Shown: positions 19,148-22,444 of the stretch, in pieces
Numbering within the stretch: the first letter of the stretch is position 1
How the letters are laid out: each line of letters opens with the position of its first letter
NCBI GenBank assembly: GCA_023954685.1
Contig: JAGSHF010000003.1
Coordinates: forward strand, 1 to 49,429
Direction of reading: 5' to 3'
DNA: 49,429 nt
From: Flavobacteriaceae bacterium
GTDB taxonomy: Bacteria > Bacteroidota > Bacteroidia > Flavobacteriales > Flavobacteriaceae
Position numbers and translations under genes: made by a program
Notes under the pieces: generated by a model
Seen by the model: the letters and a program-made list of their open reading frames with translations, nothing else
Told to the model about the DNA's origin: nothing
Database searches by the model: none

Positions 19148-20530
19148 TTATTTATTTTCTTCCTGTTCTTTTAAGTGAATCACTTTTAGACGCTTATTTC
19201 GTCTTAAATAACTCTGAATAATGTGTTGCGTATCTCTATTATGCTCCATTGGTGTTATGATAGATTGCAATACATCAATATTGTTAATCTGGTAATTTAA
19301 ATTAAAAAAACCAAAGCCTTTATAGGTGCCATTTTCAATAAGTATCGCACTGCGTTCATCAATAGCTCTCCCTCGATCAATAATAACCAAGCTATCATTT
19401 TGGAAACTATTGTTTGCAATAACTTTTTTGATGCGTTTGTTGTAACTCTCTGGTTCTTCCTCTTCGTTACAAGCACCAAAGCATTCTTTTATAGAATGAT
19501 TAAAACAATGATTTTGTGTTTGATGGAGTCCGTTAAGTTTTTGACAAAGATTGTGCTCTTCAGTAGCTTTTAGCATAAAACTTTTAGCACTTTGCAAATT
19601 AGCGAATGTAGTAATGGGCTTTTCTTTCCCATTAACTTGTGCTATTTTTAAATTGGTATACCCTTGTTCATCAGTAAAACTAAATAAACCGTGCGTAAAT
19701 AAAGAACGCTTTTGTGAGCGATTATACTTAGGTTTATTACGTTTAATTTCTTGACTTTCTTTTAGAAGTGCAACCAACTCACTTCCAGTATCTTCATAAG
19801 TTACCGCAACAACATCAAGTTGAATACGTTTTGATTTAGAATTGGTACCTGTAAAATGCTGATTAATACGTTTCTTTATGTTCTTACTTTTACCAATGTA
19901 TACAATTTCACCATCTGCTTTGTGAATATAGTATACACCAGTTATTGAAGGTAAGGTCTCAATGATATCAATCAATCTTGGCTCAGTTTTCTTTTTAGCT
20001 TCAAGTTTTATGTATTCTTGAATAACAGTTTTATCCACATCTTTTGCCAGAAGCATTTTAAATAACGTTACTGTAGCTTGGGCATCACCAGCTGCTCTGT
20101 GCCTGTCACTAACAGGTATTCCTAGTGCTCTTGTAAGTTTTCCTAAACTGTAAGAATCTTGATCGGGAATTAGTTTTTTTGCCAGTTCTACCGTACAAAG
20201 CGTCTTACGTTTAAACTCAAACCCAAGACGTTTAAATTCTGTTTTTAAAATCCGATTGTCAAATTGTGCATTGTGAGCAACAACAATACAATCATTTGTT
20301 ATTTCAACGATGCGCTTGGCGACCTCATAGAACTTCGGTGCGTTTTTTAGCATGTTACTGTTTATGCCGGTAAGGTTGACTACAAAAGGTTGGATTTCTC
20401 GTTCCGGGTTAATTAGACTTATAAATTGATCGACGACTTCATGGCCGTCAAATTTATATACAGCAATTTCAGTTATCCCTTCCTCATTGAACTTACCTCC
20501 AGTGGTTTCTATGTCTAATATTGCGTAAAT
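19148..20530 (-). CDS. DnaQ-like 3'-5' exonuclease + GIY-YIG (UvrC N-terminal-like) fusion, probable ATT start
   Basis: The listed ORF starts at ATG 20353, but the frame upstream reads IYAILDIETTGGKFNEEGITEIAVYKFDGHEVVDQFISLINPEREIQPFVVNLTGINSN, holding the exonuclease Exo I motif. There is no ATG/GTG/TTG/CTG back to the in-frame TAA. GIY-YIG: ITGVYYIHKADGEIVYIGKSKNIKKRINQHF. Confidence 0.85.
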   Translation of the reverse strand: MYAILDIETTGGKFNEEGITEIAVYKFDGHEVVDQFISLINPEREIQPFVVNLTGINSNMLKNAPKFYEVAKRIVEITNDCIVVAHNAQFDNRILKTEFKRLGFEFKRKTLCTVELAKKLIPDQDSYSLGKLTRALGIPVSDRHRAAGDAQATVTLFKMLLAKDVDKTVIQEYIKLEAKKKTEPRLIDIIETLPSITGVYYIHKADGEIVYIGKSKNIKKRINQHFTGTNSKSKRIQLDVVAVTYEDTGSELVALLKESQEIKRNKPKYNRSQKRSLFTHGLFSFTDEQGYTNLKIAQVNGKEKPITTFANLQSAKSFMLKATEEHNLCQKLNGLHQTQNHCFNHSIKECFGACNEEEEPESYNKRIKKVIANNSFQNDSLVIIDRGRAIDERSAILIENGTYKGFGFFNLNYQINNIDVLQSIITPMEHNRDTQHIIQSYLRRNKRLKVIHLKEQEENK

Positions 20531-20550
20531 AAAAAAATGTTTTGTGTGTG

Positions 20551-21216
20551 TTAATAATTACGTGCTCCAAAGATACTACTTCCAACTCTAATCATCGTAC
20601 TTCCACAACGAATTGCTAGTGGATAATCACCGCTCATTCCCATAGAGATTATATGTAGATTACAATTTGTTGATTTAATAGTTTTCATTTTTTCAAAAGT
20701 AGTCTTTAAGGTATCAAATTCACTTTTAATTTGCTCTTGGTCGTCAGTAAATGTTGCCATGCCCATAAACCCTACTATATTAATGTGTTGTAACTCTGAA
20801 AACGCAGGGGATTGCAAAATGGGACCTACCTCTTCAGGTGTCATTCCAAACTTTGAATCTTCTGATGCTATTTTTAATTGAAGCAAACAATTGATAACCC
20901 GTTTGTTATTACTAGCCTGTTTGTTAATTTCTTTGAGTAATTTAAAATTATCAACGCCATGTATGAGATCTACAAAACTTGCCATGTACTTCACCTTATT
21001 ACGTTGTAAATGACCAATCATGTGCCATTTAATATCTTCGGGAAGCTTTTCTTGTTTTTCTACCATTTCTTGAACTTTATTTTCACCAAAAATGCGTTGT
21101 CCGACATTGTATGCTTCTTGGATGGCAGAAATAGGTTTGGTCTTAGAAACAGCAACCAATGTTACATCTTGAGGAATTTGAGATTTAATGGTTTTTAAAT
21201 TTTCTGAAATATTCAT
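20551..21216 (-). CDS. YggS-family pyridoxal-phosphate homeostasis protein
   Basis: VTLVAVSKTKP, FGENKVQEMVEK, WHMIGHLQRNK, SMGMSGDYPLAIRCGSTMIRVGSSIFG; start trimmed to MNISENLK. Confidence 0.95.
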   Translation of the reverse strand: MNISENLKTIKSQIPQDVTLVAVSKTKPISAIQEAYNVGQRIFGENKVQEMVEKQEKLPEDIKWHMIGHLQRNKVKYMASFVDLIHGVDNFKLLKEINKQASNNKRVINCLLQLKIASEDSKFGMTPEEVGPILQSPAFSELQHINIVGFMGMATFTDDQEQIKSEFDTLKTTFEKMKTIKSTNCNLHIISMGMSGDYPLAIRCGSTMIRVGSSIFGARNY

Positions 21217-21217
21217 A

Positions 21218-22444
21218 TTAGAATTCATAAATGGTAACACCACTTCTTAGTTTAGGTTCAATAAAAGTACTTTTTGGAGGCATGGTTAAATGTTCGTCTG
21301 CGATAGATTTTAGCTCGGTAATGGTAATAGGAACTAAACCAAAACCAACTTTAAATTCACCACTATCAACCTTGCTTTTTATAGTAACTAAATCACTTTT
21401 ACCATGAGAATAATCCAAACGTTGATCATTACGTACATCTTCAATGCCTAAAATTGGCTGAAGTATAGTTTTATATAAAATTTGAGTATCCAAGGCATCC
21501 AGAGCATCATTAATAATGTAATTATCTTTTCTAAGATACAATGAATAAAACTCGCCATCCAAATACATACTAAAGTGATGTTTGTTTGATGGTTTATATA
21601 ATGTTTCACCTCTATTTTCTATACGGAACATAGTGTCAAGTTTCATCAAAAACTCTTCTTTTGTCATTCCGTTTAAATCAGTGATTAGTCTATTAAATTC
21701 ATGAATTAATAATTCGGACTCAGGAATTAAATAGCTCATGAAATAATTATAAGAATCGTTTTTAGTATTTATTTGATGTTCATCAGATAGAAGCACAGAA
21801 GAAGCAGATCTGTGATGACCATCTGCAATATAAAGACTTTTGATATTCGAAAATTCAGTTTGTAGTGTTTTAATCTGTTCAGACTCATCAATAACCCATA
21901 GGTAATGGGTATCTCTATAAGTTGTTGTAAATTCAAACTCGGCACGCTCTTTTTGTTTTTGCGAAATAAGCCTGGATAATATATCATTATCCGGATAGGT
22001 GAGCAATACAGGTTCTGCATTAAAGCCAACCGTTTTTAAGTATTCTTTAAATGTGTGCTCCCGATACTCAATAGTATCTTCGTGTTTTTTAATGATGTCT
22101 TTTTTGTAATCGTGAATGCTCGCTGCGGCAACTATGCCGTTAAAAATATTGCCATCACGATTCACAATTTTATACACATAAAATGAGGGTACATTATCTT
22201 GAACAAATATAGAATCTTCCTTAAACTCTAAATACCTGTTTCGAACAAGTTTATATCTGTCTTCTCCTTTTAAATCTAAATGGTATTTGTAACCTGGATT
22301 GACAATGTGTAAAAATGAAAAGGGATTGTAATCGAGTCGAGCTTCCCGTTCAGGTTGAGTATAAGTCTGGTATGATCTAGATGCTACAAGACTTACCTTG
22401 TCTCGGGTTGGTCGAACAGCTTTAAATGGAATTATGGTTGCCAT
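21218..22444 (-). CDS. DUF1015 family protein
   Basis: PFKAVRPTRDKVSLVASR, YIADGHHRSASSV motifs. Confidence 0.9.
   Translation of the reverse strand: MATIIPFKAVRPTRDKVSLVASRSYQTYTQPEREARLDYNPFSFLHIVNPGYKYHLDLKGEDRYKLVRNRYLEFKEDSIFVQDNVPSFYVYKIVNRDGNIFNGIVAAASIHDYKKDIIKKHEDTIEYREHTFKEYLKTVGFNAEPVLLTYPDNDILSRLISQKQKERAEFEFTTTYRDTHYLWVIDESEQIKTLQTEFSNIKSLYIADGHHRSASSVLLSDEHQINTKNDSYNYFMSYLIPESELLIHEFNRLITDLNGMTKEEFLMKLDTMFRIENRGETLYKPSNKHHFSMYLDGEFYSLYLRKDNYIINDALDALDTQILYKTILQPILGIEDVRNDQRLDYSHGKSDLVTIKSKVDSGEFKVGFGLVPITITELKSIADEHLTMPPKSTFIEPKLRSGVTIYEF

Follow-up and report, generated by a model that had tools for sequence, protein, structure and literature searches.

To our knowledge, few bacterial genes have conserved start codons of a non-AUG type. 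Among them, infC, the gene of initiation factor IF3, starts with AUU in E. coli and ATC in Streptomyces (PMC5472188) and with AUA in S. aureus (PMC13009471), and IF3 autoregulates infC expression. In both E. coli and Streptomyces, non-canonical starts are subject to repression by IF3 (PMC5472188). Besides infC, E. coli pcnB, encoding poly(A) polymerase I, is reported to start with AUU, which limits the amount of a nucleic-acid enzyme (Binns and Masters 2002, as cited in PMC9410913 and PMC13009471). Likewise, conserved non-canonical starts are found in ccpN of S. aureus and B. subtilis (AUA) and in S. aureus cvfC1 (AUU) (PMC13009471), both of which carry an extended Shine-Dalgarno sequence aiding the weak codon. 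In S. aureus, reporters with natural AUU/AUA starts reach about 10-30% of what AUG gives (PMC13009471). In Streptomyces, the conserved weak start of sigR (GTC), repressed by IF3, keeps a stress function low and sets the sigma/antisigma ratio (PMC5472188). In regard to the protein, the Cho+Exo and Cho-like+Exo nucleases of Mycobacteria and Betaproteobacteria combine an N-terminal DEDDh exonuclease, a GIY-YIG domain and a Cys cluster, and GIY-YIG incision together with exonuclease digestion has been proposed as their repair reaction (PMC1564403).

The nuclease gene described here has the same three protein elements and, like infC, a conserved AUH start with presumably weak initiation; its product has no known role in initiation, so an autoregulatory loop as in infC is not expected. 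Its nearest functional analogue appears to be pcnB, although the pcnB product polyadenylates RNA and E. coli relies on Shine-Dalgarno sequences. Unlike ccpN and cvfC1, Bacteroidota mRNAs lack an extended Shine-Dalgarno sequence, and the leader here is G-poor and open, while sigR belongs to another codon class. The best reading of the sequence comparisons presented below is that this gene joins infC, pcnB, sigR and ccpN in the class of conserved weak starts.

The nuclease gene and its product

The window, that is, the whole stretch of 49,429 nucleotides analysed here, is one contig (C93) of a draft genome of 3.04 Mb, 80% complete and distributed over 242 contigs. The nuclease gene lies on its minus strand (19148..20530) and encodes 460 amino acids when read from ATT at 20528..20530. 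Its stop-to-stop frame extends over 19148-20557 and is preceded by an in-frame TAA (20558..20560, minus strand), after which come nine sense codons (TTA TTA ACA CAC ACA AAA CAT TTT TTT) and, from position 20530, ATT TAC GCA ATA TTA GAC ATA GAA ACC ACT GGA, the N-terminus thus reading (M)YAILDIETTGG. An earlier note on this DNA, in which the listed ORF began at ATG 20353, had stated that no ATG, GTG, TTG or CTG is present between the TAA and this ATG and that ATT stands at 20530, and direct reading of the frame confirmed both. The first ATG/GTG/TTG of the gene in the window is codon 60 (ATG, 20351..20353, minus strand), which is likely the choice of an ORF caller, and a start there loses the DxE ExoI motif. 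The upstream neighbour on the same strand (20551..21243) is yggS by resemblance, of the PLP homeostasis family, separated from the ATT by a 20 nt spacer (20531..20550) that is G-free here. The in-frame stops rule out both a start further upstream and a fusion by read-through from yggS.

Read from ATT, the protein matches the Pfam profile RNase_T (PF00929, E=8e-32) over residues 4-157 and GIY-YIG (PF01541, E=3e-11) over residues 198-270, and a Cys4 cluster, with four cysteines in LCQKLNGLHQTQNHCFNHSIKECFGAC as read from the sequence, follows the GIY-YIG domain. The NCBIfam Cho and UvrC models align to residues 185-373, and the nearest solved structures in the PDB are the exonuclease domains of DinG and PolC and, for UvrC, 1yd6. 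The product can be described as a probable DNA-repair nuclease of Cho+Exo-type layout, differing from the named Cho+Exo and Cho-like+Exo subfamilies in that the NCBIfam Cho model matched at 83 bits, below its curated cut-off of 367 bits, and that Pfam gave no match to a UvrB-binding domain. The first 59 residues make up the first third of the RNase_T profile, including the DxE motif, and without them the match covers profile positions 63-164 only, in agreement with the earlier claim that the frame upstream of 20353 holds the ExoI motif.

The start column across orthologs

Orthologs were gathered from whole genomes and from named GTDB genomes with tblastn anchoring, and 217 distinct full-length genes were kept. 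The column corresponding to 20528..20530 holds weak or canonical start codons only, namely TTG in 78 genes, ATT in 66, ATG in 49, ATC in 12, GTG in 11 and ATA in 1, with nothing else in any of the 217, against a baseline of 8.3% for the same set plus CTG in the ten in-frame codons upstream. The 79 orthologs with ATT, ATC or ATA (ATH) have a median of 3 open codons upstream of the column; in 74 of them no in-frame ATG, GTG, TTG or CTG occurs before the upstream stop (5 have one), and their first internal canonical start is found at codons 19-60. Given start-type codons in 217/217 genes, stops just upstream, and internal canonical starts only from codon 19 onwards, the column is taken as the initiation codon, and it is near certain, as far as comparison of sequences can tell, that translation in the window starts at ATT 20530.

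The 105 orthologs that share 70% identity or more with the window protein carry ATT (48), TTG (46) or ATC (11), and none carries ATG or GTG; the 70% cut-off is one of convenience, and an ATG-free clade also appears on the tree. The closest relatives, with 77-78% identity (L073-L075), all have ATT. Outside Flavobacteriaceae, most genes have ATG, TTG or GTG in the column, and ATC occurs once. Of the two options raised in the earlier note, ATT translation or a truncated form, the first is thus strongly supported by the conserved position, by the stops just upstream in relatives and by the ATT of the closest relatives, and the ortholog alignment it had proposed as a check revealed a conserved rare start, with ATG at the column in 0/105 close orthologs.

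As a separate observation, one genome contains two near-identical gene starts, one with ATT and one with TTG (G371:C23:9712-9746 and G371:C77:2-36), which could be either a real duplication or a mixed assembly.

Sequence context and competing explanations

In 199/217 ortholog loci, yggS precedes the nuclease gene in the same orientation; the association is deeply conserved, and no link in function between the two genes is obvious. This arrangement, together with often short spacers (median 26.5 nt in ATH orthologs), would be expected if the nuclease were translated by coupling to, or re-initiation from, yggS, which would render the start codon less important. Although the most viable of the alternatives, such coupling is unlikely to explain the weak start, as spacers vary from 5 to 186 nt across weak-start genes (ATH or TTG) with no clear trend by start class, and a yggS end within 300 nt is lacking at some weak-start loci.

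A tandem (TTTTAAC)n of 2-10 copies abuts the start codon in 19/157 weak-start orthologs and in 0/60 of those with ATG/GTG. Loci with the array directly upstream of the start include L018, L087, L097, L118, L134, L139 and L205, and in five genomes (G029, G441, G444, G445, G446) it is the only (TTTTAAC)n of three or more copies. It may represent a length-variable spacer tuning expression.

Leaders between -25 and -4 contain 5.6% G in ATH, 7.3% in TTG and 14.1% in ATG orthologs, values uncorrected for phylogeny, and the difference persists when only low-GC genes or only long spacers are considered. Furthermore, A is enriched at -11/-12. The nucleotide at -3 is mostly not A in every start class, and A at this position favours initiation in F. 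johnsoniae (PMC6847099), so the start codon would not be the sole cause of low initiation.

A FastTree tree that excluded the first 13 residues has a largest ATG-free clade of 126 members (72 ATH, 53 TTG, 1 GTG) and implies at least 24 ATH/TTG switches among the 105 closest orthologs. So many switches between ATT, ATC and TTG, along with the mixed start codons in the wider class, could reflect neutral drift, in which a gene of low expression wanders without regulation among near-cognates, any of which suffices in AT-rich genomes. Drift of this kind is improbable, since ATG should remain frequent under a neutral walk but is found in 0/105, and AUG to AUU switches occur in other prokaryotes about once per 61,358 ancestral AUG starts (PMC5622118). 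The leader and codons 2-8 are also kept open, unlike at a neglected site, and paralog and neighbours retain canonical starts: the paralogs used as a control (about 39% identical, same architecture) start with ATG or TTG in 20/20 cases, yggS genes with a visible upstream stop start with ATG (90), TTG (20) or GTG (7), and canonical starts were present in every yggS or channel-gene neighbour whose 5' end was complete. ATT and TTG are two substitutions apart, and the single-step route between them that keeps a start codon runs via ATG; with repeated switches, ATG has probably been visited, and then lost, repeatedly. TTG itself is only moderately weak as a start, and annotators treat it as canonical. 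A weak start in more than 100 related species, and never ATG, looks like a maintained brake and not an error. Selection against AUG likely keeps it in Flavobacteriaceae, where the weak start is, with good confidence in the explanation as a whole, best seen as an old trait.

Codons 2-7 (20510..20527, minus strand; TAC GCA ATA TTA GAC ATA) were compared between 147 weak-start orthologs (at least 55% identity) and 46 with ATG/GTG, codon 5 being left out of the scoring. In weak-start orthologs, this segment shows the strongest synonymous constraint among the non-Ser codons of the gene: codons 2, 3, 4, 6 and 7 are TAC, GCA, ATA, GAC and ATA far above codon usage, with TAC2 in 142/147 (background 35%), GAC6 in 139/147 (26%) and ATA7 in 145/147 (27%). 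The ATG/GTG orthologs are looser (35/46, 19/46 and 32/46, respectively). When the region from -30 to +45 was folded against synonymous resamples of codons 2-8, z was +1.58 for ATH, +1.42 for TTG and +0.87 for ATG/GTG, where positive values mean that the natural codons fold less than the resamples and leave the start site open; resampling codons 9-15 gave z of about 0 in the weak-start classes. Single swaps to TAT, GCT or ATT at codons 2-4 have a predicted cost of 0.8-1.4 kcal/mol, compared with only 0.06-0.5 kcal/mol at codons 6-7, so structure accounts for GAC6 and ATA7 only in part. The coupling of downstream codons to start class is suggestive only, because it was not significant in phylogenetically independent pairs (8 supported pairs).

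The near-fixation of TAC GCA ATA NNN GAC ATA in weak-start orthologs, and the slight structural effect predicted for swaps of GAC6 or ATA7, could also point to a sequence-specific RNA or DNA element over codons 1-8, such as a protein or sRNA site, with the weak start as its by-product. Such an element is similarly improbable: the start column varies freely, but among start codons only, and structure avoidance accounts well for codons 2-4. A known RNA element was rejected, as Rfam gave no match at the start site. Avoidance of out-of-frame NTG was also considered as the cause of codons 2-7; it fits TAC-GCA, as TAT-GCA would create ATG, and in part ATA-GAA, as ATT-GAA would create TTG, but leaves GCA3 and GAC6 unaccounted for.

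At codon 13 (20494-20492), weak-start orthologs use AAG more often than AAA (89 vs 56), against their AT-rich codon usage, in comparison with 6 vs 37 in ATG/GTG orthologs.

It is very improbable that the true start is ATG 20353, the ORF caller's choice, with a GIY-YIG-only protein lacking the ExoI motif and the upstream frame as a remnant. An ATG at codon 60 is common to about 30 ATH orthologs, but the first internal canonical codon differs in many others, and conservation is high across the 59 upstream residues, which begin exactly where the ATG orthologs do. The truncated protein that the earlier note had left as an option would mean that dozens of species leave the most conserved part of the protein untranslated. 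Finally, although the genome is a fragmented and incomplete draft, a sequencing or assembly error or recent loss of an ATG start, also raised earlier, is refuted by 66 orthologs, taken from independent isolates and assemblies, that have ATT in this column, and by the missing ATG in all 105 closest orthologs, and has next to no probability.

A possible brake on nuclease synthesis

The explanation preferred here, which we regard as probable from the sequence comparisons, is that AUU is genuinely translated and that selection against AUG limits synthesis of the nuclease and gives it IF3 sensitivity. Initiation with fMet at AUU 20530 of this chromosomal Cho+Exo-type repair nuclease would be held by the weak start to a fraction of AUG output and would depend on the fidelity factor IF3, while the surrounding mRNA would be kept open (G-poor leader, A-rich -11/-12, unstructured codons 2-8) so that the weak codon still works. 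The brake could exist because an excess of the exo/endonuclease does harm; such harm, low expression and sensitivity to IF3 are what we infer from this pattern. By analogy with pcnB, a nuclease with both exo and endo domains is plausibly one to keep scarce. With the leader open and the start codon poor, the codon itself could be the step that is adjusted, but the base at -3 argues for further restraint.

As a positive control for non-canonical starts in the same genomes, infC was inspected in this genome (G000:C100:2226-2726, L293) and its relatives (L283-L312). In this genome and in nearly all relatives inspected, infC of Flavobacteriales has no ATG/GTG/TTG start, and its conserved context, G[C/T]C ATA GCA ATH CGT/AGA, points to an ATA start. 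The combination of ATA GCA ATH with the lack of a canonical start suggests that these cells start translation at ATH codons. The examples of infC and sigR make the IF3 tuning of the nuclease put forward in the earlier note plausible, and infC here also has a non-canonical start.

Our literature search found no paper describing a Bacteroidota nuclease with a non-AUG start, and the main text of the F. johnsoniae ribosome-profiling paper makes no mention of AUU/ATT starts or infC. In practical terms, start callers restricted to ATG/GTG/TTG would annotate this nuclease in truncated form, without its catalytic motif, in about a third of species. What makes the case unusual is that a whole family of bacteria without Shine-Dalgarno sequences avoids AUG in a repair-type nuclease, and the natural AUU/AUC/UUG/AUG variation among relatives offers a ready test of why genes avoid AUG. 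More tentatively, the family as a whole may place this nuclease under initiation-fidelity control, in which AUU, AUC or UUG would let the IF3-to-ribosome balance set nuclease output and an open, G-poor leader would replace the extended Shine-Dalgarno sequence.
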